DNA of 64,000 nucleotides from Photobacterium profundum SS9 (lineage in GTDB: Bacteria > Pseudomonadota > Gammaproteobacteria > Enterobacterales > Vibrionaceae): contig NC_006370.1 of the NCBI RefSeq assembly GCF_000196255.1, forward strand, positions 2,927,411 to 2,991,410, in the 5' to 3' direction. The translations under genes were made by a program, and so were the position numbers. Positions 8,452 through 25,782 of this stretch are shown here, piece after piece. A model generated the notes under the pieces. That model saw only the letters and a program-made list of their open reading frames with translations, ran no database searches and was not told the DNA's origin. Position 1 is the stretch's first letter. Each line of letters starts with the position of its first letter.

Positions 8452-8498
8452 ACTTCTGTTATTAGTTTAAAGCATTGCTTTTTCATATAGGACATAAA

Positions 8499-8757: not shown

Positions 8758-8856
8758 ATGAATATGTACCTTAAATGGCAGCTTTCAACATTGTCATCGC
8801 TAATGCCATGGTATATAGAAGATTATAAAATATCTTACTATTTCCCTTCAAAATAA
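8758..8856 (+). CDS. tnaC: TnaC-like leader peptide 2 (all key residues present)
   Basis: A 32-residue peptide starting MNMYLKWQ, with WYIEDYKI at residues 18-25 and ending YYFPSK. Trp18, Asp22, Lys24, Ile25 and Pro30 have the same spacing as Trp12, Asp16, Lys18, Ile19 and Pro24 of E. coli TnaC. Two residues follow the proline, as I recall for the Proteus vulgaris peptide (two lysines after proline). The stop is TAA, not the E. coli TGA. It lies 197 bp upstream of tnaA and is the likely working tryptophan sensor. The first eight residues nearly match leader 1, so the pair arose by duplication. Confidence 0.92.
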   Translation: MNMYLKWQLSTLSSLMPWYIEDYKISYYFPSK

Positions 8857-9053
8857 ATATATAAACATTTACGTCTCTTTTCTTTGAGGCAAAGTTAATA
8901 CACCTATATTTCGTTATTTATTTGACGCGACTTTACTCACCGTAAAATCAAGCATTAAACAACATTAAAGGCATGCTATTAATTTTAATTACATAAAAAC
9001 CAAACATTAACTTCTGGTGAAATAAAACACCAAATAAAAGTAAAGGCATTATC

Positions 9054-10520
9054 ATGGAAAACTTTAAACACTTACCTGAACCATTCCGTATCCGTGTTAT
9101 TGAGCCAGTAAAACGCACTACTCGTGAATATCGCGATGAAGCTATTTTAAAAGCGGGAATGAACCCATTCCTACTAGATAGTGAAGACGTATTTATTGAC
9201 CTGCTTACTGATAGTGGAACGGGGGCAATTACTCAAGAAATGCAAGCCGCGATGTTCCGTGGGGATGAAGCATACAGCGGTAGCCGCAGTTACTACGCAC
9301 TTGCGAACGCGGTAAAAGATATCTTTGGTTATGAATTAACAATTCCGACTCACCAAGGTCGTGGTGCCGAGCAAATCTACATTCCTGTCCTTATCAAGAA
9401 ACGTGAAATAGAGAAGGGACTAGACCGTACCAAAATGGTAGCACTGTCTAACTACTTCTTTGATACAACACAAGGTCACACTCAAGTGAACTGCTGTGTG
9501 GCAAAGAATGTGTATACAGAAGATGCGTTTGATACCTCGGTCAATGCCGATTTCAAAGGTAACTTTGACCTAGTTAAGCTAGAAGAAGCAATCCTTGCAG
9601 CCGACCCTGTAAACGTACCGTACATTGTGAGTACTATTACCTGTAACTCTGCAGGTGGTCAGCCTGTTTCTATCGCTAACCTAAAAGCGGTGTATGAGAT
9701 CGCACAGAAATATGACATTCCAGTAATTATGGACTCCGCTCGTTATGCCGAGAACGCCTACTTTATTCAACAACGTGAAGATACTTACAAAGATTGGACT
9801 ATCGAAGAAATCACGCGTGAATCTTATAAGTATGCTGACGGCCTAGCGATGTCTGCAAAGAAAGATGCCATGGTACAGATGGGCGGTCTACTTTGCTTCA
9901 AAGATGAATCCATGATGGATGCATACACAGAGTGTCGTACTTTGTGTGTGATTCAGGAAGGCTTCCCAACCTACGGTGGTCTTGAAGGTGGTGCGATGGA
10001 ACGTCTTGCCGTTGGTCTCTATGACGGCATGCGTCAGGAGTGGCTAGCATACCGTATTGGTCAAGTTCAATACCTTGTAGACGGTCTAGAGTCTATTGGT
10101 GTCGTATGTCAGCAAGCGGGGGGCCACGCGGCATTCGTTGACGCAGGTAAGCTGCTTCCACACATTTCTACCGAGCAGTTCCCTGCGCATGCTCTTGCTT
10201 GCGAACTCTATAAAGTGGCAGGTATCCGCGCCGTTGAAATCGGCTCTCTATTACTAGGTCGCGATCCAGCGACAGGTAAACAACATCCTTGTCCTGCGGA
10301 GCTACTTCGTCTGACGATCCCACGAGCAACTTACACTCAAACGCATATGGATTTCGTTATAGAAGCGTTCCAAAAAGTGAAGGCAAACGCAGCAAATGTG
10401 AAAGGTCTTGATTTTACTTATGAGCCAGCAGTGCTTCGTCACTTTACAGCTCGACTTAAAGAAGTTGAGCCTGTGCAAGCAGCGGTGAAAACGGAAACCA
10501 AGATTCTAGAAGAAGCTTAA
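9054..10520 (+). CDS. tnaA: Tryptophanase TnaA
   Basis: A 488-residue PLP enzyme that splits tryptophan into indole, pyruvate and ammonia in the cytoplasm. It reads as TnaA from end to end: the N-terminal [21 protein letters not shown] block, [16 protein letters not shown], and the PLP-lysine segment [15 protein letters not shown]. Length is slightly above the E. coli 471, with a longer C-terminal tail. It is preceded by two TnaC-type leaders, implying tryptophan-induced antitermination. A strong terminator follows directly, so tnaB downstream is at best partly cotranscribed. pdxY nearby may supply its cofactor. Confidence 0.98.
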
Positions 10521-10528
10521 TCACGATC

Positions 10529-10560
10529 AAAGAGCGCCCCCCTACGGTTGCGCTCTTTTT
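10529..10560 (+). terminator. Terminator after tnaA
   Basis: Stem AAAGAGCG/CGCTCTTT with a 14-base loop and trailing T run, starting 9 bp after the tnaA stop. Confidence 0.8.
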
Positions 10561-10633
10561 CCTAAACACAGAATAAAATAAACAGTTTAGGGTGATCAAT
10601 CCAATAACGTGAAATTACAAGAGTGACTGAATT

Positions 10634-11885
10634 ATGGAACAGAATCCGTCATTAGTATCAAGTGACAGTGTTAAGGAAAAACATCCGTCATTAAGGAGGG
10701 GCGTGTATTATCGCCAGTGTCTGCGTTGGTGCGGGCATGCTGGGGCTCCCAAGTGCGGGAGCAGGTGCATGGACAACTTGGTCAGTTTTCGCGATTACAA
10801 TAACCATGGTCGTCATGACCATTTCGGGTTGGATGCTGCTAGAGGCATTCAAGAATTATGACTTAAAGGTATCTTTCAACACGGTAACCAAAGACATACT
10901 TGGTGATAAGGTCAACATGTTCAATAACCTGATGGTGTACTTTGTAGGGGGTATTTTGCTGTACGCCTACATCACATCTTCAGGCCTTATCCTTCAAGAT
11001 GTTCTGGGCCTCGATAGCAAAATCACCTCTATCTTGTTTGTTTTTGTATTTTCTCCCTTCGTTTGGCACTCAACTCGAGCAGTAGACCGAATTTCCGTTA
11101 TTTTAATCTTATTTATGGTCTTAAGTTTTGTATTTGGTGTGTCAGGGCTGGCGATCAAAGTAGATATGTCCATCTTGTTTAATACCATTGATGAAAAAAC
11201 GAGCTACGCACCCTACGCAATGGCGATGCTGCCTGTCGCTTTGACGTCGTTTGGTTATCACCATTCTGTGGCAACAATGCGTGCTTATTACGGCGAAGAG
11301 GAAAAAGCGAAATACGCGATTTTGGGTGGCACAATAATCGCGTTAAGTCTGTATGTTCTATGGTTGTTCAGCATTTATGGGAATTTACCTAGAAGTCAAT
11401 TTGGACCTGTGATTGAGCAAGGCGGTAACGTAGATGCACTACTAACTACATTAGGCTCAGTCATTGAATCTGAAAAAGTAGCGCATGCGATCCATACCTT
11501 CTCAATGGCGGCAATTCTATCTTCTTTCATTGGTGTTGGACTTGGGGTGTTTGACTATTTGGCTGATTTGTTCAAGTTCGAAGACACCAAACAAGGCCGT
11601 GCAAAAACGTGGCTAATGACTTTCATACCACCTTTGATCCTGTCATTGCTATTTCCGTTTGGTTTTGTCATTGCCATTGGCTATGCCGGCGCTGCGGCAA
11701 CCGTCTGGACATGTATTATTCCTGCACTTCTCGTAAGAAAAGCACGCACGTTAGAGAATGGTGATAAAGGCTTTAAAGCGCCAGGCGGCAAGCCAATGAC
11801 TGTTCTCGTCATTAGCTTTGGTATTTTAACTGCCGTGTTTCACTTCATGTCGATGTTAGGCATGCTTCCAGCGTTTACAGGCTAA
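10634..11885 (+). pseudogene. tnaB: Tryptophan permease TnaB, frameshifted near the N-terminus
   Basis: An aromatic amino-acid permease of the Mtr/TnaB family that would import tryptophan for tnaA. The body (frame from 10737) has about ten hydrophobic segments and TnaB-type blocks such as SFNTVTKDILG and GVFDYLADLFK. The expected start is the ATG at 10634 (MEQNPSLVSSDS...KHPSL), which is in a different frame. The N-terminal frame covers about 20 residues, then the permease frame resumes as GGACIIASVCVGAGMLGLP. The shift lies between 10690 and 10707, near TTAAGGAGGGG, and equals one extra or two missing bases. Either the gene is inactive or the read has an error. No internal start near 10737 would restore the first membrane segment. 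Confidence 0.85.
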
Positions 11886-12117
11886 ACAATCTGAGATAAA
11901 TGCATTAGCGATTGTAAAAGAAGCTGGGTTAGACGCCAACAATATCGTTAAAACCACGGTATTTGTAAAAGATCTAAATGACTTTGCCCGAGTAAATGAG
12001 GCTTATGAAGCTTTCTTCAATAATCATGAGGCGACTTTCCCTGCTCGTTCTTGTGTTGACGTTGCTCGCTTACCTCTGGATGCAAAAGTTGAAATTGAAG
12101 TTATTGCCTCACGATAA
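11878..12117 (+). pseudogene. ridA: 5'-truncated RidA-family remnant
   Basis: In the frame ending TAA at 12115-12117, the translation from about QAKQSEINALAIVKEAG through VKTTVFVKDLNDFARVNEAYEAFF and FPARSCVDVARLP to IEVIASR is the C-terminal two thirds of a RidA/YjgF enamine deaminase. The first 45 or so residues, including any start codon, are missing. The remnant begins inside the tnaB stop region, so a deletion appears to have fused the tnaB 3' end to it. RidA removes reactive enamines made by PLP enzymes, which suits a neighbour of tryptophanase, but this copy is very unlikely to be translated. Confidence 0.85.
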
Positions 12118-12333
12118 CGTTTAGGGTTTAAAAACTCTTTCTTATCTTAATTAATAGCCCTGTCATTTATAGATGATAGGGCTAAGTATTTTAAGCTAGA
12201 ATACACACAATTATTTTAAGTTCATCTAAAACAAGAAATAATCAAATTACCAAATGCTCTTTTAGATTATTTCTATAACTCTAAATACGCAATTTGGATC
12301 CCTCCTTGAGTTACTTATAGAAAGGAAAACATT

Positions 12334-13209
12334 ATGCATGGCATTCTGTCCATTCAATCACATGTTACTTACGGACACGCAGGGAATAGCTCTGCTATTT
12401 TTCCGATGCAAAGAATGGGGTTCGAAGTATGGCCAATACATACGGTCCAGTTTTCTAATCATACTCAATATAAACAAGGTTGGACGGGACGTGCTTTCTC
12501 AGCCTCAGATATTGATGAACTAGTTCAAGGGCTTGATAACATTGATGCGCTGAAGCGTTGTAAAGCAATTCTCACGGGGTATCAAGGAAGCGCTGAACAA
12601 TGTGAAGCTATTATAAGAACCGTAGAAAAAGTTAAGGCTCAAAATCCTTCATCCTTATACATCTGTGATCCTGTCATGGGGGCACCGGATAAAGGGTGTA
12701 TCGTAGCTCCCGGCATTACGGAATACTTGGTAGATCATTTAATGCCAATGGCAGATGTTATCGTGCCGAATCAATTCGAGCTCAGCCAATTTGCACAAAT
12801 GGAAATCAACACGTTGTCTGATGCCGTGGAAGCTTGCAACATTGCTTTAGCTAAGGGTCCAAAAGTTGTTCTTGTTAAGCATCTATATTGTGTTTCAGAC
12901 GATAAGTTCAGCATGCTGTTAGCCACACCTGAAGGTTGTTTTCTTGCCCAGCGTCCTCATTTAACGTTTGCTCAGCAACCCGTTGGGGTTGGAGATCTGA
13001 TATCTTCGTTGTTCACCGCGGGTTTATTAAAAGGTTACTCAACAATGCGTGCATTCCAACATTGCCATGATGCTTGTTATGGTGTTCTTAAACAAACTCA
13101 CCAGCTAAACGAGTGGGAATTGCAAACTATTCTAGCCCAAAATGAACTCGTCGAGCCAAGCGAGACATTTCCAATAGAAAGGCTCAACCTGAACTTGAAA
13201 ACAGCGTAA
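12334..13209 (+). CDS. pdxY: Pyridoxal kinase PdxY
   Basis: A 291-residue kinase of the PdxK/PdxY ribokinase-like group that phosphorylates pyridoxal to PLP in the salvage pathway. The N-terminus [18 protein letters not shown] and VQFSNHTQY are typical of PdxY; CDPVMG and the C-terminal [11 protein letters not shown] carry the Mg-ATP and catalytic Asp region. The ATG follows GAAAGGAAA. It sits after the tna genes, and tryptophanase needs PLP, so a functional link is plausible. A terminator lies 45 bp after the stop. Confidence 0.95.
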
Positions 13210-13254
13210 ATATAAAAACACGAATATCAGATAAACAATCGCTAAAAACAACAA

Positions 13255-13276
13255 AGGCACCAATGAGGTGCCTTTT
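13255..13276. terminator. Bidirectional terminator between pdxY and alaE
   Basis: GGCACC-AATGA-GGTGCC with flanking A and T runs on both sides, between two convergent genes. Confidence 0.75.
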
Positions 13277-13308
13277 CTATTTGAACCCGTACTCAATTGA
13301 TTACACGA

Positions 13309-13788
13309 TTACATTTCTTGATGCTGAGGCTCTGGGTGTGATAGCTCACGGCAGTAGCCCGGTACTTTAAACATACGACGGCATGCATCTAAGAACTGAC
13401 CATAAACAATACCCAACGCACCAGAAACAAAAGCATTACTTGTTACTGCGGTAATGATTTGATCGGTACCTGCACCTACAGCCAATAAAATACAAGCGTA
13501 GACCGGAGACTGAAACAACACGTAGGCCACCATGTCAGATAAACCCTTCATCCAGCTAGAGGGTGATAATCGATGACCTGTGCGTAATAGGTAATCGCGG
13601 AACACACCGTATGGCCATGCAATCGCAATATTAACGGGAATCGACAAGGTTCGTGATGCTAAAGACTGCTCGAAGGTCATACCCGACACGAAAACTTCAA
13701 TCATCATGCCTGTAATAAAACTAAAAATAACCATGGCAAACGTATCTGCCGCTGCGTTACGCATATTGAATTGACCTTTGACAGACAT
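13309..13788 (-). CDS. alaE: L-alanine exporter AlaE
   Basis: A 159-residue inner-membrane protein with four hydrophobic segments. It matches E. coli AlaE (YgaW) in blocks such as ADTFAMV, IEVFVSGMTFEQS, IPVNIAIAWPYG, FQSPVYACIL and YGQFLDACRRMFKVPGY. AlaE exports L-alanine to prevent toxic build-up. The gene is convergent with pdxY and transcribed away from the AT-rich desert upstream of dgt. Confidence 0.95.
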   Translation of the reverse strand: MSVKGQFNMRNAAADTFAMVIFSFITGMMIEVFVSGMTFEQSLASRTLSIPVNIAIAWPYGVFRDYLLRTGHRLSPSSWMKGLSDMVAYVLFQSPVYACILLAVGAGTDQIITAVTSNAFVSGALGIVYGQFLDACRRMFKVPGYCRELSHPEPQHQEM

Positions 13789-14668
13789 TTCAAACCCCCC
13801 AAGCTATAGCAAATAAAACCAAATTATTAGGTAATAATAGAAACTTAAACTGACTTAAAGATCCAATCCAGTTGATTTGCGTATTAGAACAGGTTTTTAT
13901 CAAAATAAAATACTAAAGTTTTTATATGTTGGTAAATTTACCACTAGTTTTAACCTCGTTTTTGGAACAAATTACTACCCACGCACCACTCACGTGCCAC
14001 ATCGACAAAAAACACCAAATCCAAACTCCATTTAAGCACTATAAGTTGCATTAAAAGCACTTTAAAAAGGCAGTAAACATATATAATTAATCAATACCGC
14101 TTACAATCATTCCGTAATGGATATTTACCCACAAAATATGACAATAAAATCAAGCAGTAATAAAAACAACAAGCGATGAGAATAAGTCATTTAATAACAA
14201 TTGGTTATGACCACATAAGAAAACGAAAAATAAAGTTATGAATGGCCAATATTAAACAATAAAAAGATAACGGATAATTAACCAGTATATGCTTATATTT
14301 ATCCAGACAAATACTCAACAAAACACGCTATCGCCACAAAGCATATAAAAGTAACATTTAACACCATGCATTCGTCATCATAATTAAAGTATAAAATCAG
14401 AATAAATCACTCAATTCCTATCGATAAATCATGATTTACAACCAGAGAGATCAAAAAGCAAACCACATCAAACTGAAAGTTAATTACATGTTGTTCACAC
14501 TTCCAACAATCACGATACAAGATCAGCTTGATACCCAATATGAAGCAAAGAATACAAATCATAGTTATGGTGATTAATACTCTCAGTAACATATTGATTT
14601 ACTAGATCATACGCATCTAATCCCTTACTCTGACAAAGGAAAATATTGATTACCTATAAGGGGTAAGT
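13789..14668. other. AT-rich 880-bp region without a supported gene
   Basis: This spacer between the divergent alaE and dgt genes is strongly AT-rich and contains many short A tracts. A 61-codon frame at 14407-14592 (minus) has no ribosome site and no recognisable family. The region must hold the alaE promoter at its left end and the dgt promoter at its right end; otherwise I see nothing definite. Confidence 0.6.
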
Positions 14669-16201
14669 ATGAGCATAAATTTCAATAGTAAAGTTCGCTA
14701 TAATCGTCTATATCGTTCCAACGGTGACATTAACGAAGCTAGACCATTCCATCCGAGTCAAAAAGGATCTGCAGAACTGACAAGTTTTGAAAGTGATAGA
14801 GGTAGAATTATCAATTCTGCAGCCATTCGTCGGTTGCAACAAAAGACTCAGGTGTTCCCTCTTGAAAGGAACTCAGCGGTACGAAGCCGTCTAACTCATT
14901 CAATGGAAGTCCAACAAGTTGGTCGATATATCGTTCAAGAAGTTTTTAAGCAATTGAATAAAGAAAAGAAGGAAGAGTACAGATTAGATATTTTGGAACG
15001 GCAATTTGAATCTATTGTTGAAATGGCCTGCCTTATGCATGATATTGGTAATCCCCCCTTTGGCCATTTTGGCGAACAGGCGATTAATGATTGGTTTGGA
15101 AAGCAGTTATATAAACTAATAAAAACCGACTTACCAGATCCTAGAATCGATCTCCCCGAACCACTTTACCGTGATCTATCAAACTTTGAAGGCAACGCCC
15201 AAGGTATTCGGTTAGTCCATACCCTACTCGGGTTGAATCTAACTTACTCTCAAGTATCTGCAATCTTAAAATACACCCGACGTGGCGATCAGCTCAGTCC
15301 TAAAGAACTAAAAAAAATTGACCCAACAAGTACCGATGATTTGAGCTACCTGAAGAAGAAAGTCGGCTACTATGTATGTGAAGACGATTTTGTTTCAAAA
15401 CTACGTTGCTGTTTAAGTATCGAAGAGGGCTGTCGCTCACCATTTTCTTATATTATGGAAGCGGCTGACGATATTTCATACGGTATCGCAGACATTGAAG
15501 ATGCTGTTGAAAAAAACATTATTAATCGAACCCATTTAGGGCAGATATTAATTAAGGAATACGCAGATCTATTCGCAGAATATGAAAGTGCAACAGCTAA
15601 TGAAATGGCAGATATTGTAAAACTTGCTTCAGAAAGCGCAGAACGAGCAAAGAATTGTGCGACTAGCCATTTTTTCATAACACTTCGAGTTGAGATCAAT
15701 AGACGGCTACCCAAATACGCCGCTTCTCAATTTATTGAAAACATCGAAGCCATCTACCACGGACGCTTTAATCGTGCGTTAATTGAAGATAAGAGCACTC
15801 AACATGCTTTAGTACAAACATTAAAAAACATTGCCGTAAAATACGCTTTTTGTGCTCCTGAAGTAGAAGCAAGAGAATTACAAGGCTATCGAATTATTAC
15901 CGGATTACTGGATATATATAAACCTATTCTTAGGCTTGAACGAAATACTTTTGAGCAAATGATTGAAGGAAAAAGAGGTACGCCGCTTTATGAAACTCGA
16001 TTATTCAAAAAGCTGCCTAACAAACACTTAAGAGCCTATATCAATGCGATGGAGACTGACGCCATCAATGCTCTACCCTATAAATATAATGTTGATATTT
16101 GGGAGTTCTATTTTCGCGTCCGACTCATTCAAGATTATATTAGCGGCATGACTGATCAATTTGCATTTGATGAATACCGTGCATTAATGGTGATTGATTA
16201 G
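14669..16201 (+). CDS. dgt: Deoxyguanosinetriphosphate triphosphohydrolase
   Basis: A 510-residue HD-domain enzyme that hydrolyses dGTP to deoxyguanosine and tripolyphosphate. The metal site is visible as RLTHSMEV, CLMHDIGNPPFGHFGE (the HD pair) and AADDISYGIADIEDA. Length is close to E. coli Dgt (505). The ATG follows AAGGGGTAAGT. It ends 30 bp before the 51-bp repeat that marks the left edge of the defence island, so it is either the last core gene or hitch-hiking accessory DNA. dGTPases have been described as anti-phage proteins that starve phages of dGTP, but core Dgt also does housekeeping. Confidence 0.95.
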   Translation: MSINFNSKVRYNRLYRSNGDINEARPFHPSQKGSAELTSFESDRGRIINSAAIRRLQQKTQVFPLERNSAVRSRLTHSMEVQQVGRYIVQEVFKQLNKEKKEEYRLDILERQFESIVEMACLMHDIGNPPFGHFGEQAINDWFGKQLYKLIKTDLPDPRIDLPEPLYRDLSNFEGNAQGIRLVHTLLGLNLTYSQVSAILKYTRRGDQLSPKELKKIDPTSTDDLSYLKKKVGYYVCEDDFVSKLRCCLSIEEGCRSPFSYIMEAADDISYGIADIEDAVEKNIINRTHLGQILIKEYADLFAEYESATANEMADIVKLASESAERAKNCATSHFFITLRVEINRRLPKYAASQFIENIEAIYHGRFNRALIEDKSTQHALVQTLKNIAVKYAFCAPEVEARELQGYRIITGLLDIYKPILRLERNTFEQMIEGKRGTPLYETRLFKKLPNKHLRAYINAMETDAINALPYKYNVDIWEFYFRVRLIQDYISGMTDQFAFDEYRALMVID

Positions 16202-16231
16202 AGCAACATCTGATGGTATTAATTCTAGTGC

Positions 16232-16282
16232 AGATAGCAAAAAGCCGTCACAAGGACGGCTTCTTTAAATGATGGCGGTGAG
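16232..16282. repeat. Left 51-bp direct repeat (att-like)
   Basis: It contains the terminator hairpin GCCGTC/GACGGC and ends with ATGGCGGTGAG, the 3' end of tRNA-Ser(GGA) read on the other strand. It differs from the right copy only at 16252 (A versus G). It lies 30 bp after dgt. Confidence 0.85.
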
Positions 16283-16526
16283 ACAGCAGACTTTATCCCC
16301 TAATCAACGGATATAAAACTATTTTACTAACTCTAACTTTAAAAAGTATTACTATAGGTATTACTTTAAGAAATGCATTCGTTTTGGCTATGAAGGAATT
16401 AACGCCGAGCCACGAATCTAACAATTTTTTAGTGTAACACCAAGTTCTACTTGCTTGCGCTACCCCCTGTTACAGTATTAGCTTTATTGTTGACTTACTG
16501 ACTATTAGAGAATAGCCATTCAAAGA
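16283..16526. other. Left end of island, no supported gene
   Basis: The spacer between the left repeat and the TOPRIM-like gene has no frame with a start codon. A roughly 57-codon open stretch without start on the minus strand (stop at 16293-16295) could be a worn remnant, but it matches no family I know. Confidence 0.5.
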
Positions 16527-17222
16527 CTATTCGATTGGAACACCTAACATACGCCCTAACACCTCTTTCATCGAATCTTGAAAGTCAGTCATTGATTTCA
16601 TGTCTGTGATTTGAACTAGGTCTATCCGGCCTTCATCGACGAGATCATTGAGTGTTTCACGAGTTGCTGCTTCTCCAAGTAATTCTTCTAACTCCCCTTT
16701 CAAAGGCTTAGGAGAATCATCGTTACCAGAACGCGCTTCAAAAGCTACGCAGTTTTGAAATCCGTTTTTCAGCGCACATAACAGCCAAGCTTCAGATTTT
16801 GGTTGGGCAACAAAAGGGACACCATTTTCATACTCTTGAGCTAAAAAGCCATCATGCATAGATTGACGCTTTCTGTCATAGTCGAGCCACTTGTTGCTGT
16901 CTGAATCGTGAAACAAAACTGCTGCACTAGGCTGCTTATCCGGGTTTGAGGCAATATAGGCTAGCGCACGAGCAGCTCGATAGAACTCTCTAGTTTCTTG
17001 CTGTTGCTTTTTACCACGCCTAGATAGAGGTTTGATGATGCTACTATCTTTTGAGACCTCGGTGATTTTGGCTTCATGAACTACCTCAAGCATCTCAATA
17101 TCAAGTAGAGAGTACCCAATATAACTTTCTACAAACCTATCAATCAGTTTACTAAGTGGTCCAATCGCTTCATTACTTTTTCCGATGTCGGTTTCACCTT
17201 CACCACTGACAACTAAATACAT
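16527..17222 (-). CDS. TOPRIM-like DUF4276-type protein, putative defence effector
   Basis: A 231-residue protein with a TOPRIM-like layout: VVSGEGETDIG at residues 5-15 supplies the first acidic motif, AVLFHDSDSN the DxD motif, and FVAQPKSEAWLL the P-x-x-E-x-W motif typical of DUF4276 proteins. It follows the AAA ATPase gene by 14 bp and is clearly in its operon. Comparable ATPase-plus-TOPRIM pairs are anti-phage abortive systems (AbiL with AbiLi/AbiLii, and more distantly PARIS AriA/AriB and OLD nucleases). By analogy this is the effector nuclease and the ATPase the sensor. The DUF assignment is from motif pattern alone. Confidence 0.75.
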   Translation of the reverse strand: MYLVVSGEGETDIGKSNEAIGPLSKLIDRFVESYIGYSLLDIEMLEVVHEAKITEVSKDSSIIKPLSRRGKKQQQETREFYRAARALAYIASNPDKQPSAAVLFHDSDSNKWLDYDRKRQSMHDGFLAQEYENGVPFVAQPKSEAWLLCALKNGFQNCVAFEARSGNDDSPKPLKGELEELLGEAATRETLNDLVDEGRIDLVQITDMKSMTDFQDSMKEVLGRMLGVPIE

Positions 17223-17236
17223 GCTTCATGCCCTCT

Positions 17237-18436
17237 TTAGTTATCGAGTAATTCAAGTGTGGCAATTTCCGATGCTAAATTTTCTAGCATGGTATCTTCA
17301 TACGCTTCACCTGGACCCATGAATTTTAGCTTGCGTTGCATAGACGGAATATCAAATAAACGAATGGCTTGCGTTGCACCAGCTTCATTTTTATAGAGAT
17401 ACACTACCCCAGCTTTAGCTACCTCATCTTCCATAAAATTGAGAATCATAGGACTGTGGGTGGTCACAATAATTTGGGTTTTAGCCGCTACTAAGCTATC
17501 CACCAGCTTTTCTATAAGCTCTGGATTGACACCATTTTCAATTTCATCAAGCAATAAAGCACTTTGCTTTTTGGTTAACTGAGCAAAAATCGCCATGAAA
17601 CGTAGCAAGCCATCGTTGATGTGTCTTGCTTCCGTTTTGATGGTTTTCTCAGCAAACTTTTCTTCAATCTCTAACTTGACTGTGCCAGTAGATTTTTGAG
17701 CCATGGCATCCACTTTAGTCAATCGAGGATATAAACCTTTAAGGGTCGACACTAAGTTAGATTTCTCGTCTTTACTCATACTGCTGATAAAGCTAGACAG
17801 CATTTTACCACCAACGCCAAGGGTTTTTCCGCCAGCGTGTTGATCTCGCAGCATTTCAGGTGAAAGCATATCCAGGGCATTGAGTTCTGTGAAGAACGAT
17901 TTGAACTGCACCAACTCTTTCGGCAGTTGTTTTTCTCTTAGTTGAGAAAGAATTGAACCTTGATAATCAAAAGTGATTGGTGCTTGCAAGTCTTCTGTTG
18001 GTAATGAGAACTTACCATCAGCAACATTAAGCAGAGCTTTACCATCCCAAGTGATTTTTTCAGAGGTGCAGTACAGATCTTTTCGGTTAAAGCTGGCTTC
18101 CCAAATAACGGGTTTGCCTGCGAAAGAAAGTTCTACTGTAAAGGTAATATTGGATTGCTTAGTCAGTGTTGAATTAAGGTCTTTTGCACTCCAGTGGCGG
18201 CTCTCTAACCATTCATCAATACCACCACTCACCTGCTGAGAAAGAAAATCAACAAACTGCAATACGGTGGATTTACCTGAACCATTTAAGCCAACTAGGC
18301 AATTAAACTTGCTAAAGGGCAGCGAGAAATCGACCAGCGACTTGAAGTTATTGGCTTTAATATTAACCAAAGAGAGTGATTGGTTAGTTTCTGTATTCAA
18401 TGAACTGCTCCCACTTTTTGATTCGCTTTGTGCCAT
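17237..18436 (-). CDS. AAA15/RecF-like ATPase, partner of TOPRIM-like protein
   Basis: A 399-residue ABC-type ATPase of the kind found in OLD, PARIS and AbiL systems. Walker A is GLNGSGKST at residues 49-57, Walker B is ALLLDEIENGVNPE, and the switch His follows in IIVTTHSPMIL. The region between is short with no long coiled coil, unlike RecN or SMC. It is the first gene of a two-gene minus-strand operon with the TOPRIM-like gene. It has no nuclease domain itself, so the downstream protein likely provides the activity. Defence function is inferred from architecture and location. Confidence 0.85.
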   Translation of the reverse strand: MAQSESKSGSSSLNTETNQSLSLVNIKANNFKSLVDFSLPFSKFNCLVGLNGSGKSTVLQFVDFLSQQVSGGIDEWLESRHWSAKDLNSTLTKQSNITFTVELSFAGKPVIWEASFNRKDLYCTSEKITWDGKALLNVADGKFSLPTEDLQAPITFDYQGSILSQLREKQLPKELVQFKSFFTELNALDMLSPEMLRDQHAGGKTLGVGGKMLSSFISSMSKDEKSNLVSTLKGLYPRLTKVDAMAQKSTGTVKLEIEEKFAEKTIKTEARHINDGLLRFMAIFAQLTKKQSALLLDEIENGVNPELIEKLVDSLVAAKTQIIVTTHSPMILNFMEDEVAKAGVVYLYKNEAGATQAIRLFDIPSMQRKLKFMGPGEAYEDTMLENLASEIATLELLDN

Positions 18437-18531
18437 ACCCTTTATCCGCTAGTTGAAACAACAACTCATCGTGATATTTTAAAAACTCAAAATTACTCTT
18501 TTTCACTCAGAGAGCCCTTTCCTGTCAAAGA

Positions 18532-18552
18532 CTACAACTACAACTACAACTA
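18532..18552. repeat. Short CTACAA hexamer tandem repeat
   Basis: The unit CTACAA is repeated three and a half times between the ATPase gene and the SMC operon. Such repeats can change length, and this one lies in the probable promoter region of the ATPase gene. Confidence 0.6.
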
Positions 18553-18594
18553 GGTTATCATATTACTGATTTTGAGACTGTCAGATAATTCATA

Positions 18595-18626
18595 GCGTTA
18601 ACACATGTCAAAGATGACATGAACGC
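18595..18626. terminator. Hairpin at the end of the SMC operon
   Basis: ATGTCA-AAGA-TGACAT (18605-18620) is enclosed by outer arms GCGTT/AACGC, about 47 bp past the last SMC-operon gene. It lacks a T run, so it may be a Rho-assisted terminator or an operator for the ATPase promoter. Confidence 0.4.
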
Positions 18627-18672
18627 TTACTACCCTCATGTCCAACAACAAAGCGTCAGTCGTAATATCTCA

Positions 18673-19239
18673 TTAAGCCTCTGCTGAATACTTTTCAACA
18701 TGTAAATTCAAAAAATGCATTCCAGCAGAACTAAGGACATAATGCTGATCGCCGCAAGGGTATAGAAAGTTTCGGTCGACAAGATAGGTTATGGCTTTAT
18801 CCCAGGTTTCTATTCCAAGTGCCTGACGAATATCGTTGTAAATGGTTTGCTCTGCGATCTCTTCAAGAGCAGTTCGTCCCAAACCGATAACAGGCGTTGT
18901 TAGATCATCAAGATCAAAGCCTTTATCCACCCAATAGCGCGCGATGATCAATAGCATGGCCTGGATCTTAGTCGCATTAGTATCCGCGTCTTCTTCAGCT
19001 TCACTACGACTAATATAGAAAAATTCCCCCTCTACGTTAAAATTGAGGTTGTAACCTATATGCAGATAGAGCGGTGTAAAGTGCTCAAGGTTGTTGTACA
19101 ACTCTGTATAGAGAGTACTTTCTATAAAGGTCTGCTGGTACAAGTCATATGCTTGCTTGGTGATCACCTTTCCGTTTACAAAGGTGGTGTATATCTGCTG
19201 GCTTTTCGCCATATTGATTTGTGAAAAAGCCGTCGTCAT
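18673..19239 (-). CDS. jetB: Wadjet/MksE-like KITE subunit (JetB)
   Basis: A 188-residue small winged-helix protein resembling the MksE/MukE accessory (KITE) subunit of SMC complexes, without signal or membrane segments. Its ATG overlaps the kleisin stop by four bases (ATGA), so the two are translationally coupled. In Wadjet/MksBEFG complexes this subunit bridges kleisin and DNA. It is the last gene of the D-C-A-B operon here. The family call rests mainly on size, predicted fold pattern and context. Confidence 0.8.
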   Translation of the reverse strand: MTTAFSQINMAKSQQIYTTFVNGKVITKQAYDLYQQTFIESTLYTELYNNLEHFTPLYLHIGYNLNFNVEGEFFYISRSEAEEDADTNATKIQAMLLIIARYWVDKGFDLDDLTTPVIGLGRTALEEIAEQTIYNDIRQALGIETWDKAITYLVDRNFLYPCGDQHYVLSSAGMHFLNLHVEKYSAEA

Positions 19240-20645
19240 TGTTTCACTCTCTCGGTTCGAATTTTACGATATAAATACACTGTCTCTTCTTGCACTAGAC
19301 GATTGCGGAAATTAGTGACTTTCACTGCGTGCCCATCTAGCATTTCATCATTACGCATCAAAAAATTAAGCCCTTCCAACAAATCAACAAAGTGATAGTC
19401 GGGCAGATGGTCTTTTAGTCGCCGCTGCAATGCGAGCGTCAGGTCTTGATATTCCGACATTTGCATTTGTTTGACCAAATTGTAAATCCGCTCTGCACGT
19501 TCCAGTCTGCGCTCGGTAGAGTTGTCTTTTGAACTAGTCAGTTCCACGTAGTGATTTTGTTTCAGTAAGCTCTGGTCTGATACTCTAGCCTCAATGTCAC
19601 TTACCACATTGTTAAGGTAAGCTTCCGAGCTGCTGATACGCAATACCTTTGGCCTTGCCTGCTGCATTAGCCCCAAAAACGCGCCGTTATCACGTGCAAA
19701 TTGTCCGTCAATCTGGCTACGCTTAAGGTTGTGTCGCGTTGCATCCAGCTCTTGGACGAGGTCACCGAATGCGGTTTCAATCGCATTAAACTGCTTAAGA
19801 CGCTTTTTAGAGCGAGCCAAAAACTGATCAACAGACTGGGATACCTTACTAATTTGGGAATGAAAGCTATTAAAACTTACCTCATATCTCAACATTGCCG
19901 TTGCGCGCTGATGATTTTGATGGTTTTCAAACTGGCCACGCAAACTTTGCAGACACTCAAATAGGTTAGGACCATCTTTAAGACGACTTTTTTCATCTAG
20001 AAACTGTCGAGTTGGTAAAATGTGTCTAGATAACAGGAGAGAGATCTTTTCAATGGATTCACGCTGTAGTACCGAGAATACATGAGGATTTTCTGACTTG
20101 GCTGCTAACTCACTTGCTTCACTCAATTCTTGATTAATCATCTGCATTTTAACTAAGTTCAAACGGATACTATTTAGCAATTCGCTCAGACGGTGGAATA
20201 GTTCATCTATCAACTCTTTAAAATCAAGATCCATATCGCTAAACAACATCGTGTTCGATTGAAGCTTAGTGAGTAATAAACGTATTCCACCTAACTGGAT
20301 CTTCAATGCCACATCGGTTAAATCTTGAAATAGACTCCGATCAAATAATCGAAATACGCCGATCACTGATCGATCGAAGATAAGCCGACTCTCACCGCCA
20401 AACTCATCTTTATCCACTAAAATATGTGCGGCCAGCAAGTTATCCGTCGAGAAGGCAGTGCGTAGCTGTTTACGTTTATCCTGACTTTGCCCCTGAATAT
20501 AACGATGTAGCCGAGCAACAAATTTAGCTTCCCGTACATAAGGCTCACCGGTTTCATTCATCTCACGAATTATGTCTCGCATAATAGTGTGATGCTCAAG
20601 CATGATGGCGAAAGTCGGAATAGTTAGAAGCCGTTGATCACTCAT
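19236..20645 (-). CDS. jetA: Wadjet/MksF-like kleisin subunit (JetA)
   Basis: A 469-residue, mostly helical protein of the MukF/MksF kind: an N-terminal winged helix region, a long helical middle and a C-terminal winged helix that ties the SMC heads. I chose the ATG at 20645 rather than 20666 because it gives an 8-bp overlap with the SMC stop (ATGAGTGA) and has GGAGAGG upstream. It lies between the SMC and KITE genes, as expected of a complex made in fixed ratio. No catalytic motif is expected. Confidence 0.82.
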   Translation of the reverse strand: MSDQRLLTIPTFAIMLEHHTIMRDIIREMNETGEPYVREAKFVARLHRYIQGQSQDKRKQLRTAFSTDNLLAAHILVDKDEFGGESRLIFDRSVIGVFRLFDRSLFQDLTDVALKIQLGGIRLLLTKLQSNTMLFSDMDLDFKELIDELFHRLSELLNSIRLNLVKMQMINQELSEASELAAKSENPHVFSVLQRESIEKISLLLSRHILPTRQFLDEKSRLKDGPNLFECLQSLRGQFENHQNHQRATAMLRYEVSFNSFHSQISKVSQSVDQFLARSKKRLKQFNAIETAFGDLVQELDATRHNLKRSQIDGQFARDNGAFLGLMQQARPKVLRISSSEAYLNNVVSDIEARVSDQSLLKQNHYVELTSSKDNSTERRLERAERIYNLVKQMQMSEYQDLTLALQRRLKDHLPDYHFVDLLEGLNFLMRNDEMLDGHAVKVTNFRNRLVQEETVYLYRKIRTERVKQ

Positions 20646-23577
20646 CCGCCTCTCCAAACATATCAAGCTGCTCTCTATCTAACGCACTTCCCTTGGTAAC
20701 AAAACTGTCTGGCATGCCGGTAAAGGCAATGGTCCGTGCAGAATGATATGGTGTCGCAGTACGCATCGCATCTAATCGAAAATGCTGACCAAATTTAAAA
20801 ATGATCTCACTGGATGCCGAATTTGTGGATGCACTCAGAACCCTGAACCCGGCCTGTTTCATATTTGGCAAAAGCCAATCAAACTGAGAGCTGTCAATAG
20901 AGGCACCTTCATCAATAATCAAAGGGAAGTGAGTAGTACAGGCGCTGTTCCTTAACCGGCCAAGCAGGATCTCAACTAGCTTGAGATTGATCAGCATAAT
21001 GGTTGAGGTCGACTGTGATTTACTCTCCCAGCCACTTTGCCCTTGTTTTTTCACTCGATAGGCGATACCAGATACAATCTGTTCCATAGTCAACAGGGCG
21101 GCTTTTCCATCTGGGAAAAACTTCCGGCTGAAGGCTTTCAGGCGATCAATAAATTGCTCTGACGCTTTTTGATCCGAGTGAGCGTCTAAGTGCTCAATTT
21201 CGCCGACTAAATCACTGAACCTTGCTTCAACTTTTATCTTCGCTTCTACCTGAGCTAAATCGTTAATCGTTACACCATCAAATGCTCGATTAATACTTTG
21301 CTCAAACTGGCGCACCATCTCCCGATTATTTTTCAATTCATTAATAATGCTGTGAACTGAGTGCTTATGCTCAACAAAGTTTTTACGCAGAATATCAAAC
21401 TCCTCATCCAAGCCTTGATAACGCGATTGTAACTGTTGGAATGCGTGCTCCAACAACTCAACTTCAACCGGTGACCTCATTAATTGGTCGTCATTTTCTA
21501 TCACTCTATTACGTACGAAATTTCGTACTTTTTCTTCAATATCAGCCTTCGCTTTTCGTTTACTTTGTAGGTTTTCGATACGGCTGTGCAAACTCTCTTC
21601 ATTGAGTTCCAACGCATGATCTGGCAAGACAGAGAAATCACTAGTCGATAAGCCATGGGCTTCAAGTTGTGCTTTCGTCGAGATCTGATACTGCCCTAGC
21701 TTCTCAAGGTCGGATTTAAGCTGTCCTACTTTAACCTCTTGCACGCTGTATGCCTGCTGCTCTGAATCTAACACTTCCTTCTGGCTTTCAAGCTGCCGTT
21801 CCAGATCCAACTGTCTGTTTTTTACTGTCTCTAACTCTTCATTGAGAGTGTGCAGCTGCTGTGTATTACTGTTACAAGCCAGTAGCAGTTCAATCTCATC
21901 CATAGTACGTTTGATTTCGGTTTTAAGTACCGTGATGGTTTTAACCTGTTCAAAGCGACTTTCTTTATCCATCGCATTAACTTCGGCCGCACGCTTACAC
22001 TTTCTTTCGAGCACCGCCCGGACTTTATCTAGCCTGCTTTGATCTGACTCGCGCTTATCAACAGATACCCCTTCGAGTTTTACTCCTAGCAGTTCATAAC
22101 CAAGCTCATCAATCACAACCAGATCAGCAAAAGCCCGAATAGTCTGCGCTTCTGAAGGTGTCAGCATTCGCCCTGGATTTGCCTCTGCCACTTCAAAGTT
22201 CACTGCTGCTAGTTTCAACCAGACTGACTCTGACAACTGGTTGAACAGCTTAAATTCCTGATTATTAACTGATGTTTGATAGCGATGCTCCATCGCTTCG
22301 AACTTGCTGATTTCCTGATTCAGATCGAGTAGCTCCTCCTGCCGCTTTTCAGCATTCTGCTTGAGTTCTAGCTTTTTCTCTTTCTTAGCTAAATGCTCTC
22401 GGTGACCTGATATAATTGTCTCAAGGGATTCTGTTTCATCATACTGATTTACCACCAACTGAGTTTTCTGCACTGTTCCATCAAGCTTTGCCTGCTGACG
22501 AAGCAGCGTTTTTATCTCCCCTTCTAAGTTTTTTTGCGCACTTTCCGTTTCCCGACACTCTTTACGAATTGCATTAGCGCGATTTTCCATCAGCTTAAAT
22601 TGGTTCTGCTCTAACCCCAGCTCCGTGCGTTCCTTGTCGATACGATTTTGTGCCATCATGGCGAATTTCATCAACTCATCTTCGGCGTTTTTATTTCTCA
22701 TTAAGTCCTGATGGCTGGTCGAAAGATTTTCAAACTCAGGTCTTAAGCTTTCAATATTTTTTAGTAGCCGTTCACGACGTGCAAGCGCATCGTTATGCTC
22801 AATAAAGGCATCAATATCAAGGTTAAGCTCGTCTTTGCGCTCTTTTTTCTGAGATTCAATAATATTGGCTACTGCTAGGCGAACTGTGTCCGAACTAGTT
22901 TTCATATCAAACAACAAACGAACCAGTGCTCGGAAAGCGCCAACATCGGCATCGTTCGTCGTACTGAGTGGGAATAGACAAAAACGCATCGCATCAATAT
23001 CAAGCAATTGATTCGCGTAAATCACTTCTTTAATTGCCGCTGAACGCATTAGAGTCTTAAAGTACTTGTCTTCTCGCTTGAGGAAAGTTTGGACTTTAGT
23101 TGGACTCAGGTCTTCTACCCTGCCTCCAATACCATCCGCCCCAGCATTAGCATCCCAAAAAAGATGGCGAATCTGTTCATAACGCAGGGAAGTAAACATT
23201 CGGCGATAATCCAGCTTATCTGTACTGCCACGATAGAGGATCTGACAGTGAGGCAAACGTCCGCCTAAGTAGTTGTCGCACTCTAGAATCAAAAAACTGC
23301 TGTTGCTTGGAAAATAGTGTTCGAAACTCTCATCGTTGGAGAAGAACTTACCTTCTTTATCTGAAAAGCCAAATTTCTTTGCTGAATCTTTGAAGTTTTC
23401 TTCTGGTAGCAAAAATAGCCTAATAGCATTGAGGATAGAGGTTTTACCTATATTTCCGCCACCTATCAGTATGCCTCCTTCACGGAGATCTATTTCAGCG
23501 ATGGCAACACCAGCTGAATCCACCGTAACTAGTCGAGATATACTGATCAGAAGGTTGTCGATTGAATCGTTTGGCAT
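20638..23577 (-). CDS. jetC: Wadjet/MksB-like SMC ATPase (JetC)
   Basis: A 979-residue SMC-type ATPase. The N-terminal head has Walker A GGGNIGKTS at residues 39-47; two long coiled-coil arms flank a hinge-like middle (about residues 450-540). The C-terminal head carries a signature-like SKSQSTSTIML and Walker B PLIIDEGASID. It is shorter than MukB and fits JetC/MksB proteins, the motor that extrudes DNA loops in Wadjet plasmid defence. The start is 3 bp after the upstream TOPRIM gene. The Walker A reads NIGKT where many JetC proteins have a Gly- or Ser-rich loop, consistent with a divergent branch. Confidence 0.9.
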   Translation of the reverse strand: MPNDSIDNLLISISRLVTVDSAGVAIAEIDLREGGILIGGGNIGKTSILNAIRLFLLPEENFKDSAKKFGFSDKEGKFFSNDESFEHYFPSNSSFLILECDNYLGGRLPHCQILYRGSTDKLDYRRMFTSLRYEQIRHLFWDANAGADGIGGRVEDLSPTKVQTFLKREDKYFKTLMRSAAIKEVIYANQLLDIDAMRFCLFPLSTTNDADVGAFRALVRLLFDMKTSSDTVRLAVANIIESQKKERKDELNLDIDAFIEHNDALARRERLLKNIESLRPEFENLSTSHQDLMRNKNAEDELMKFAMMAQNRIDKERTELGLEQNQFKLMENRANAIRKECRETESAQKNLEGEIKTLLRQQAKLDGTVQKTQLVVNQYDETESLETIISGHREHLAKKEKKLELKQNAEKRQEELLDLNQEISKFEAMEHRYQTSVNNQEFKLFNQLSESVWLKLAAVNFEVAEANPGRMLTPSEAQTIRAFADLVVIDELGYELLGVKLEGVSVDKRESDQSRLDKVRAVLERKCKRAAEVNAMDKESRFEQVKTITVLKTEIKRTMDEIELLLACNSNTQQLHTLNEELETVKNRQLDLERQLESQKEVLDSEQQAYSVQEVKVGQLKSDLEKLGQYQISTKAQLEAHGLSTSDFSVLPDHALELNEESLHSRIENLQSKRKAKADIEEKVRNFVRNRVIENDDQLMRSPVEVELLEHAFQQLQSRYQGLDEEFDILRKNFVEHKHSVHSIINELKNNREMVRQFEQSINRAFDGVTINDLAQVEAKIKVEARFSDLVGEIEHLDAHSDQKASEQFIDRLKAFSRKFFPDGKAALLTMEQIVSGIAYRVKKQGQSGWESKSQSTSTIMLINLKLVEILLGRLRNSACTTHFPLIIDEGASIDSSQFDWLLPNMKQAGFRVLSASTNSASSEIIFKFGQHFRLDAMRTATPYHSARTIAFTGMPDSFVTKGSALDREQLDMFGEADE

Positions 23578-23580
23578 AAG

Positions 23581-24360
23581 TTAATCCTGTATCAATGCAG
23601 GTAAAAAAGCTTCCTGCTCCAAAAAGTGGCGGGTTTGGTTCATTAAATCTGCCTCTGTATTCAGTTTTAGTTCTCGAGCAAGCTCAATTGCCTTGGTCAG
23701 GTGGGTACTATTTTTGGGTGCTAGCTTAAATTTGTTTCTAAATACCTCCCAATCAACTGGCGCTAACCAGTCACACTGAGGAAGTGAAGTTTTAAGAGTT
23801 TTATATGTTGTTAATCCGCCTAATTCAACATCTTGCGCACAATATAGTTCGCCATAAGTCGAAAGGAACGGTCGATTTAGGTGGTGACATATTTGATTAC
23901 CAGATCCAAAAATGATGTCACAACTATCTGCTAATGACGGGTGGCCAATTAACTCTAAAAATTCCTGATAACGATAAAAATTTTCAATGTTTTCAACAAG
24001 AACAGCTCGTTTTCCGACAAGCTTGCCTTCCGTTCTGAATCCATTAATACCAGACACAACAACAAAAGGAATCTGAGATTTAGTGAAATGATTTAAAACT
24101 AAAATGTGGGTAAAATTACTCGGAAAGTCATGAGAGCGACCAATGTGAGATGCACTAACTCTATCGCTTAGCTCTGGCTCATAAAGTGCGTTATGTTGCT
24201 CTTCATTAACTATCGTCAACTGATAACCACCACGAACGCGTGTAGCGCTATATATTCTTCGCCACTCGTTCATATCAGAATATGGCAAGCATTCGATAAA
24301 ACGATCTAGGTTTATCGAATCTCCCTGTGAAATTTTTCTGAGATATTGATTAAGTTTCAT
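23581..24360 (-). CDS. jetD: Small TOPRIM nuclease-like protein (JetD/MksG-like)
   Basis: A 259-residue protein that heads the SMC operon. A TOPRIM-like core is visible: AVLVENIENFYRY (acidic motif VEN at 122-124) and YCAQDVELGGLTTYK (D177 and E179 in the place of the GDID motif of JetD). JetD/MksG is the endonuclease that cuts looped plasmid DNA in Wadjet systems. Typical JetD is near 380-400 residues, so this one lacks much of the usual N-terminal arm. Being first in the operon is also unusual, since JetD is normally last. The D-x-E variant makes catalytic status uncertain. Confidence 0.75.
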   Translation of the reverse strand: MKLNQYLRKISQGDSINLDRFIECLPYSDMNEWRRIYSATRVRGGYQLTIVNEEQHNALYEPELSDRVSASHIGRSHDFPSNFTHILVLNHFTKSQIPFVVVSGINGFRTEGKLVGKRAVLVENIENFYRYQEFLELIGHPSLADSCDIIFGSGNQICHHLNRPFLSTYGELYCAQDVELGGLTTYKTLKTSLPQCDWLAPVDWEVFRNKFKLAPKNSTHLTKAIELARELKLNTEADLMNQTRHFLEQEAFLPALIQD

Positions 24361-24504
24361 TTCAGCAAATCCAATTTTATCAGATACATAATGTCAAATA
24401 TTTCATAGAATTCTAAAAAATGTTGCGGGGCGAATCGATTTATTGAAGAAAGTATTTTCATCTAAACCCGTGACCCGTTGATTATTATTCGCTCTTAAAA
24501 TAAT

Positions 24505-24551
24505 ATGACGTCATTAGCGACAGGTAAATACTGAATACATATACATGTCGC
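24505..24551. promoter_or_regulatory. Candidate operators in the divergent jetD/WYL promoter region
   Basis: A perfect 10-bp palindrome ATGACGTCAT (24505-24514) is followed by inverted arms GCGACA (24517-24522) and TGTCGC (24546-24551), ending 22 bp before the WYL gene start. BrxR/CapW-type WYL regulators bind inverted repeats in their own promoters, so this is a sensible autoregulatory site. Confidence 0.45.
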
Positions 24552-24573
24552 ATAACTAGACAGGAATTTCAAC

Positions 24574-25428
24574 ATGAATAAGTGGCCAATAAGGTGGGAT
24601 CTGCTCTTTCGGTATCGGATGATTGAAATTATTGCGTTGTGGGAAGGCAGGCTAACAACCAACCACCTAATACAGAGTTTTGGAATTGGGCGGCAACAAG
24701 CATCGAAGGATATCAACAGCTACTTAACAGATATCGCTCCTGGCAACCTCGTCTATGATAAGTCTCTAAAAGGTTATAAGCCCAGTGATAGCTTTGTGCC
24801 TCAGCTTACTAGCGGTCACGCCGATGAGTATTTACATATCTTGTCTCGCAGTGAGGATATGACTGTTACCTTTAATGAGCTCGATATGGGATTTGAACAT
24901 ACTGCGATGGTTCGCCCAGTAACACGTAACATTGCACCAGAAATTTTGCGATCTCTTGTTCAAGCAATCAGAGAAAAGAAACGTGTCGATATATGCTACA
25001 CACCACTTAAAGATGGGGAGAAAGTTGATAGGATCATTTCACCTCACACCTTAGTTTGCACGCCATTACGCTGGCACGTTAGAGGCTATTGTGAACATGC
25101 GAAAGACTACCGAGATTTTGTCCTAAGCCGTATTCATGGAATACCTGATTTAAACGACCATGCAGTACATGGAAAGCAAGGTGATAAACTTTGGAATGCA
25201 GCAGTCGCTGTAGAACTATCGCCCGACTCTCGTTTTAGCGAAAAGCAAAAATCTGTTATCGAAAAGGACTTTGCCATGGTGGACGGCGTGTTAAGCATCT
25301 CAACAAATGCGTCACTCATCAGATATGTGCTTGATTCCTACAACATTGATATACATGTGCAGAAATCAAACCCTCAGGTGCAACAGATCGTTGTTAGGAA
25401 TATGGATGAGTTGCTACGTTACTTATGA
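24574..25428 (+). CDS. WYL-domain transcriptional regulator, BrxR/CapW type
   Basis: A 284-residue regulator with an N-terminal winged helix (RYRMIEIIALWEGRLTTNHLIQSFGI...QASKDIN), a central WYL domain (KKRVDICYTPL..., PHTLVCTPLRWHVRGYC...FVLSRI) and a C-terminal WCX-like extension. This layout is that of BrxR and CapW, repressors that sit beside BREX, CBASS and other defence operons and are thought to respond to a nucleic-acid or nucleotide signal. It is divergent from the SMC operon, with 213 bp between that carry inverted repeats. It most likely controls the Wadjet-type operon and itself. Confidence 0.88.
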   Translation: MNKWPIRWDLLFRYRMIEIIALWEGRLTTNHLIQSFGIGRQQASKDINSYLTDIAPGNLVYDKSLKGYKPSDSFVPQLTSGHADEYLHILSRSEDMTVTFNELDMGFEHTAMVRPVTRNIAPEILRSLVQAIREKKRVDICYTPLKDGEKVDRIISPHTLVCTPLRWHVRGYCEHAKDYRDFVLSRIHGIPDLNDHAVHGKQGDKLWNAAVAVELSPDSRFSEKQKSVIEKDFAMVDGVLSISTNASLIRYVLDSYNIDIHVQKSNPQVQQIVVRNMDELLRYL

Positions 25429-25631
25429 AGAAGAGAGTCAGCCAAGGTCATACCGGGGTAGGTACCAAAAGAGAGATAAGTAATTTTATCTTGGCCAGGG
25501 CGCTTGTAACGAAACTGCCAATAGCGCGAGTTACTTGGCCTGACATAGAAATACAAGTTACCGCCATCAGAAAGGCGATAGACCTTGTCTTTGGGTTTTC
25601 GTGGATATCTTGGGGCGCTACAGGACTGTAA
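25425..25631 (+). CDS. Possible small ORF overlapping the WYL regulator stop
   Basis: A 68-codon frame whose ATG overlaps the regulator stop in ATGA, the arrangement of a coupled gene. The peptide is basic at the start and has no recognised domain. No convincing ribosome site is present and it ends 23 bp before the right repeat, so it may be chance. Treat it as doubtful. Confidence 0.3.
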   Translation: MKKRVSQGHTGVGTKREISNFILARALVTKLPIARVTWPDIEIQVTAIRKAIDLVFGFSWISWGATGL

Positions 25632-25653
25632 CTAATTAACTTTAAAGAAATTA

Positions 25654-25704
25654 AGATAGCAAAAAGCCGTCACGAGGACGGCTTCTTTAAATGATGGCGG
25701 TGAG
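25654..25704. repeat. Right 51-bp direct repeat (att-like) with tRNA-Ser terminator
   Basis: It comprises the tRNA-Ser(GGA) 3' end and, read on the minus strand, a terminator stem GCCGTC/GACGGC followed by TTTTT. It matches the left copy except at 25674. Confidence 0.85.
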
Positions 25705-25782
25705 GGAGGGATTCGAACCCTCGATACGTTGCCGTATACACACTTTCCAGGCGTGCTCCTTCAGCCACTCGGACACCTCACC
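25695..25782 (-). tRNA. tRNA-Ser (anticodon GGA), copy 2
   Basis: An 88-nt class II tRNA identical to copy 1 at 4543-4630. Its 3' end is the apparent integration site of the island. It is intact, so the element restored or did not disturb the gene. Confidence 0.95.

Follow-up and report, generated by a model that had tools for sequence, protein, structure and literature searches.

The type I Wadjet system, encoded by JetABCD (EptABCD), serves as the model for a structural maintenance of chromosomes (SMC) motor that responds to DNA size and shape by triggering a nuclease. The N-terminal CAP domain of its nuclease, JetD, is named as the likely autoinhibitor in the accessible part of a review (PMC10586767), and Wadjet types II and III are described as different in operon organisation in portions of the same review and of a further paper (PMC12647877). 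In the part of PMC10123090 available, the operon of Corynebacterium glutamicum is given as mksFEBG, with the nuclease last. Here these systems are compared with a four-gene operon of Photobacterium profundum SS9, found in a window of 64,000 nucleotides (contig NC_006370.1, positions 2,927,411 to 2,991,410; coordinates without a locus label refer to this window). It is likely that its products, a TOPRIM protein, an SMC ATPase, a kleisin and a KITE subunit, form one complex of a MukBEF/MksBEF-like motor with a TOPRIM nuclease, representing a compact, separate Wadjet/MksBEFG-like branch that would cut invading circular DNA. The system is close to Wadjet/MksBEFG in design and lies outside type I by profile, size and gene order; its role in defence is predicted from sequence.

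The initial annotation had read the four genes as overlapping or nearly touching on the minus strand with the nuclease first, and this layout is confirmed. The intergenic distances along the operon are +3 bp (nuclease-SMC), -8 bp (SMC-kleisin) and -4 bp (kleisin-KITE), and the genes are translationally coupled, with the kleisin start placed at the ATG used by relatives. The same order proved conserved in a survey of 33 loci with this nuclease type, namely the window, L021-L037 (Vibrionaceae), L042-L044, L084-L091, L123, L128, L131 and L132; eight of the 11 loci from one later search duplicate known loci and were counted once, L038, a 29-residue match without operon in a nineteenth Vibrionaceae genome, was removed, and L127, which reads SMC-kleisin-KITE from the contig start, stands outside the set. 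TOPRIM-SMC-kleisin-KITE (D-C-A-B) is complete in 28 of the 33, among them L090 with a KITE open reading frame (ORF) of merely 101 residues, and another order occurs in none. Three loci are consistent with D-C-A-B but incomplete (L044 and L123 at contig ends, and L036, where the nuclease is split over two ORFs), and two are uninformative on order (L035, fragments only, and L087, the nuclease alone). Two local peculiarities were also recorded: in L131, a plasmid locus of P. damselae counted among the 28, a DUF5406 protein and a small ORF (9926-10700) lie between SMC and kleisin, and the lone short TOPRIM gene of L087 (7614-8501), which has no SMC partners, overlaps a carbohydrate kinase ORF.

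That the canonical order puts the nuclease last held for type I-like loci, to which the contrast set of 20 loci, fetched from 38 Pfam JetD_C matches (35 of 229 genomes), is confined. Complete A-B-C-D was read in 19 of them and C-D only in L099, with profiles built in part from those very loci. All ten JetD proteins scanned, of 375-430 residues, were best matched by type I JetD1. The nuclease is last also in three annotated plasmid loci from Bacillota, Actinomycetota and Betaproteobacteria (18 records matched), and searches of Pseudomonadota with JetD2, JetD3, JetA3 and TIGR02679 either came back empty or yielded weak matches that are probably of type I. Placement in a known subtype with the nuclease-first order was found neither with the PADLOC 2.0.0 profiles nor among the 20 type I-like loci. 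Two further loci with Jet genes were seen besides: L151 (6650-15299) carries JetA-JetB-JetC followed, instead of JetD, by a 1013-residue SNF2 helicase related to DpdE/ZorD, possibly another effector swap, and in L150 (2989-9210) two ORFs, of 277 and 410 residues, come after JetB-JetC, and the JetD model matched nothing in them.

Across 30 aligned nucleases, E123 and D177 of the TOPRIM part are invariant, and position 179 carries D in 21 and E in nine, among them the window protein. All 30 SMC proteins have G44 and K45 of Walker A and S856 of the signature; D889 and E890 of Walker B are present in 29, with a gap in the remaining one. Best fold match of the nuclease is MksG, and its TOPRIM domain is of the MksG/TopoVI type by structure comparison; against JetD, hhalign (profile sets without the broken loci L035 and L036) gave a probability of 95.6, over the TOPRIM part only, and some nuclease homologues are already named JetD-domain proteins by NCBI. 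The TOPRIM part starts at about residue 82, with just some 80 residues ahead of it, and the Pfam scan matched no DUF3322 domain in the 259-residue protein. Those 80 residues are predicted to form three helices and a strand hairpin and look like a small winged helix, a reading taken from secondary structure, as the fold comparison barely tests this part. The SMC protein aligns with type I JetC over its length (hhalign probability 98.8). The kleisin matches neither JetA nor MukF at the sequence level; its best Foldseek match is MukF of MukBEF (E 1.3e-4), which, on a model with a mean pLDDT of 69.9, is to be taken as a pointer. Single-protein sequence searches of the PDB returned no Jet, Mks or Muk chain, and therefore the relationships of the subunits rest on fold and profile-profile comparison.

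In PADLOC 2.0.0, zero families were matched at E<=10 by nuclease, kleisin and KITE, and the SMC protein met GajA (8.5e-7, residues 22-73, P-loop only), LmuB (0.0022) and, as its best JetC hit, JetC3 (0.011). In a tree of SMC heads with 49 rows, the 29 rows of the new type were set apart from the rest by a branch with support 95/94 and the 16 JetC rows of type I by another with support 99/97, and the compact A-B-C-D sets L147 and L148 were placed next to the new type; the root is arbitrary and the tree program issued a warning that long branches meet, so that the exact positions of L091, L152, L147 and L148 are unsure, and L044, with an 886-residue SMC at a contig end, was omitted. These results support the initial proposal of a distinct subtype of SMC-based defence, in that the type I-III profiles of PADLOC claim none of nuclease, kleisin and KITE and the SMC heads group apart, the defence role itself being predicted. 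L152 (4727-10355) encodes a 1259-residue SMC-like protein, an MksE-family KITE and a 406-residue ORF, with no nuclease recognised.

The divergent gene beside the operon was rightly assigned to the BrxR/CapW-type regulators: by phmmer the WYL protein matches BrxR 7t8k over residues 8-270 (E 1e-54) and CapW 7tb6 (E 1.9e-32), and by PADLOC the WYL family (E 3.6e-36). Of 30 loci, 13 have a divergent WYL gene at a distance of 90-213 bp from the nuclease start; such a gene recurs in the distant members L044, L084, L091 and L132 and beside the classical locus L101; in L031 it lies 5.7 kb away. BrxR homologues co-localised with Wadjet are already listed in the part of PMC9122601 available. Adjoining the WYL start in seven Vibrionaceae loci is a block with 57 of 69 columns invariant, versus 4 of 144 other positions, the latter figure being lowered by the short spacer in L025. 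It contains TTTACC-17-TATTAT (24528-24500), reading into the TOPRIM gene, which is the sole intergenic promoter-like site that the scan reported and is invariant in all seven; since the intergenic region is no richer in such sites than shuffled sequence, only this conservation speaks for it as a putative promoter.

The operon, the WYL gene, the PDC-M25A/B pair and the probable integrase remnant lie between two copies of a 51-bp repeat (Table 1), 9.4 kb in all. In P. indicum L179, a match to window 13308-14552 is followed by 162 bp and then by a match from 25650 onward, with one repeat copy alone matching between the matching flanks, and L180 has no match to window 14002-25653. The operon thus sits on a 9.4-kb tRNA-Ser element that is absent from a close relative, a mobile-island setting. 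The open frame at 25430..25641 resembles, as judged by eye, the integrase arm-binding domain. Just outside the repeat, a dGTPase gene (14669-16201) is also missing in L179 and is perhaps a separate acquisition; absent between flanks there, too, is the region 8200-13307 with a beta-eliminating lyase, a Trp/Tyr permease and a kinase-like gene.

Table 1. Features of the P. profundum window around the nuclease-first operon (window coordinates; a point marks a feature without strand; aa, amino acids)
Feature	Coordinates	Strand	Evidence or remark
51-bp direct repeat, left copy, putative att site	16232..16282	.	50/51 bases = 25654-25704
Candidate defence protein PDC-M25B, on element	16527..17222	-	PADLOC E 1.1e-83
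Candidate defence ATPase PDC-M25A, on element	17237..18436	-	PADLOC E 2.4e-162
KITE subunit, MksE-like, 188 aa	18673..19239	-	Pfam MksE PF21980 E 2.2e-21
Kleisin subunit, MukF/MksF-like, 469 aa	19236..20645	-	Foldseek MukF match; operon position
SMC ATPase subunit, JetC/MukB/MksB-like, 979 aa	20638..23577	-	type I JetC profile match
TOPRIM nuclease subunit, JetD/MksG-like, 259 aa, first operon gene	23581..24360	-	
Putative promoter/operator block, conserved	24499..24567	-	7 Vibrionaceae loci
Divergent WYL regulator, BrxR/CapW family, 284 aa	24574..25428	+	phmmer, PADLOC
Probable remnant, N-terminal part of P4-type tyrosine integrase	25430..25641	-	open frame
51-bp direct repeat, right copy	25654..25704	.	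overlaps 3' end of tRNA-Ser
tRNA-Ser (GGA), integration target	25695..25782	-	ARAGORN

The distribution of the operon is patchy. Matches were found in 19 of 296 Vibrionaceae genomes (18 with operon or remnant once L038 is removed), in four of 369 genomes of a class-wide draw and in seven of 349 of a phylum-wide draw, where each count includes the genome of the window and the draws may overlap. The hosts include Photobacterium galatheae, P. phosphoreum, P. indicum, Enterovibrio, Acinetobacter cumulans and a Methylococcales bacterium. Among 72,556 plasmid records the locus is carried by two, of P. damselae (L131) and Methylophaga thalassica (L132), sized 599 kb and 320 kb, and in the phage records the SMC protein was absent at E<=1e-5. 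A literature search lacking most subscription journals and preprints brought up no recognisable account of a Wadjet-like operon with the nuclease first, which is weak evidence of absence.

Defence neighbours were sought with PADLOC at 12 hand-chosen loci, a hit being called strong at E below 1e-20, with no background rate for comparison. Strong hits were obtained at six of them: PDC-M25 in the window, a type I restriction enzyme in L024 and L025, a CBASS cyclase with a 4TM effector straight after the KITE gene in L084, a type III restriction enzyme and HEC-06 in L088, and GajB in L089. L090 has an adjoining integrase, and four further genes of the window (4874-13209) gave no PADLOC hit. Other accompanying genes were noted apart from this count: ORFs immediately preceding the nuclease gene in L043 (5511-6887) and L123 (7760-9175), that of L043 with cNMP-binding and rhodanese domains and with Syd and PP2C proteins after the KITE gene of the same locus, and, after the KITE gene of the Methylophaga plasmid locus L132 (11905-16005), a 1366-residue protein with double-PIN and PIN-TPR-GreABC domains.

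The patchy distribution, the mobile island, the frequent pairing with a BrxR-type gene and the defence neighbours count in favour of a nuclease-armed SMC defence complex. Several observations weigh against it. At the sequence level, profiles of all four subunits match no PDB chain of a Jet, Mks or Muk protein, and the hhalign probabilities of the kleisin with JetA (0.6) and of KITE with JetB (19.9) are not significant. Neighbouring defence hits are weak only at L022, L027 and L043 and missing at L026, L087 and L090, and the WYL gene is not adjacent in 17 of the 30 loci (L042 with just 62 bp of upstream sequence). An inverted repeat with perfect 6-bp arms common to the promoter regions was not found, which counts against a simple BrxR-type operator, although BrxR family members without obvious repeats are noted in the portion of PMC9122601 consulted. 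Finally, most of the JetD N-terminal domain is lacking in the nuclease, and its activation may differ from that of JetD.

In the mechanism proposed for such a complex, the motor would load on DNA and extrude loops. On small circular DNA the motors would finish the circle, upon which the dimeric nuclease would be activated and the invader cut, in the manner of type I Wadjet. In loci with the WYL gene, its product would, by analogy with BrxR, keep the shared promoter region repressed until invasion or DNA damage releases it. Because most of the JetD N-terminal domain is absent, the nuclease is expected to be restrained in a different way from JetD, either through the SMC core or through a low level of expression.

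The same machine might have phages or other mobile elements as its main target, such as phage DNA that replicates as a circle, or, in line with a proposal made for Lamassu, DNA ends and junctions, rather than small plasmids. Such a specificity, which we regard as unlikely but worth keeping in sight, would suit the mostly anti-phage neighbours (type I and III restriction, CBASS, Gabija) and the residence of two operons on large plasmids, by which not all plasmids are excluded. Yet large plasmids escape type I Wadjet too, according to the text available of PMC10586767, and kleisin-KITE-SMC-TOPRIM is the composition of a plasmid-cutting machine. Far less probable is a second chromosomal condensin whose TOPRIM accessory would serve topology, by TopoVI/Spo11-like strand passage or decatenation, instead of immunity. 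The distribution, the mobile element and the defence neighbours speak against it, no TopoVI-B-type ATPase was seen in the operon, and Y6 is no more than a candidate for a topoisomerase-like catalytic tyrosine. Moreover, the host has its own MukBEF-like locus, L146, with a 1486-residue SMC, an MksE-family KITE and a 440-residue ORF, because of which the operon is not taken for the housekeeping condensin; a housekeeping condensin without nuclease, the other outcome that could have overturned the earlier proposal, is also contradicted by the nuclease gene in the operon. That a different immune system of the ABC-ATPase/TOPRIM kind (Gabija, PARIS or Lamassu) was misread as SMC-kleisin-KITE, as the GajA and LmuB hits of the SMC protein could suggest, is scarcely credible, since the GajA match is confined to the P-loop and the SMC protein aligns with JetC throughout, the KITE is MksE-like, the kleisin MukF-like, and the TOPRIM domain belongs to a separate protein of MksG/TopoVI type. 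As to membership of LmuB-LmuA(-LmuC), GajA-GajB or AriA-AriB sets, PADLOC found weak P-loop and coiled-coil matches of the SMC protein only and none of the TOPRIM, kleisin and KITE proteins.

If the operon encodes a nuclease-armed SMC defence complex, its divergent branch, in which the nuclease is much smaller, the gene order is different and a dedicated repressor is often predicted, raises the question of which parts of the Wadjet mechanism are essential, and chiefly whether the large JetD N-terminal domain is needed for autoinhibition or not; it also shows that one catalogue of defence systems, PADLOC 2.0.0, has a gap. The tree neighbours L147 (6972-12461) and L148 (1174-7887) are compact kleisin-KITE-SMC-short TOPRIM sets, L148 with a divergent WYL gene. 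Their TOPRIM proteins match Pfam DUF7281, above the cut-off in L147 and below it in L148, and their nucleases and ORFs of 413-419 residues had no PADLOC hit. Given the short TOPRIM proteins of both and the WYL gene of L148, the compact nucleases may therefore belong to a wider branch in which nuclease-first is one arrangement among others. A bolder and more doubtful extension, offered tentatively, is that this "compact Wadjet" would be one more class of SMC immunity armed with a nuclease, with an organisation of its own, in which a minimal TOPRIM nuclease without the autoinhibitory CAP domain of JetD is made first and kept harmless by transcriptional BrxR silencing and the SMC core more than by its own fold, and which together with the DUF7281 sets would make up a second great branch.

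Compared with the known systems, the operon shares with type I Wadjet a coupled four-gene set of SMC, kleisin, KITE and TOPRIM nuclease, and its SMC and TOPRIM proteins are detectably homologous to JetC and JetD. It differs from type I in the order D-C-A-B versus A-B-C-D, in the size of the nuclease (259 versus about 375-490 residues) and of the SMC (979 versus about 1120-1230 residues), and in a kleisin and a KITE without profile link to JetA and JetB; JetD is a two-domain protein (DUF3322 and TOPRIM) of about 400 residues, whereas the nuclease here is without most of the N-terminal domain. With MksBEFG of C. glutamicum it has in common the MksE-family KITE and MksG as the best nuclease fold match, but MksG has the DUF3322 N-terminal domain that is missing here. 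To MukBEF/MksBEF it is linked by a kleisin fold nearest to MukF and by a KITE of the MksE family, which is matched in E. coli too; those condensins are without a nuclease, in contrast to the TOPRIM gene of this operon. The DUF7281 sets resemble it in the short TOPRIM and in a compact SMC nearest to the present group, and depart from it in the order A-B-C-D and in a nuclease related to Pfam DUF7281. Lastly, the WYL protein matches BrxR along its length, but would here control an SMC system.

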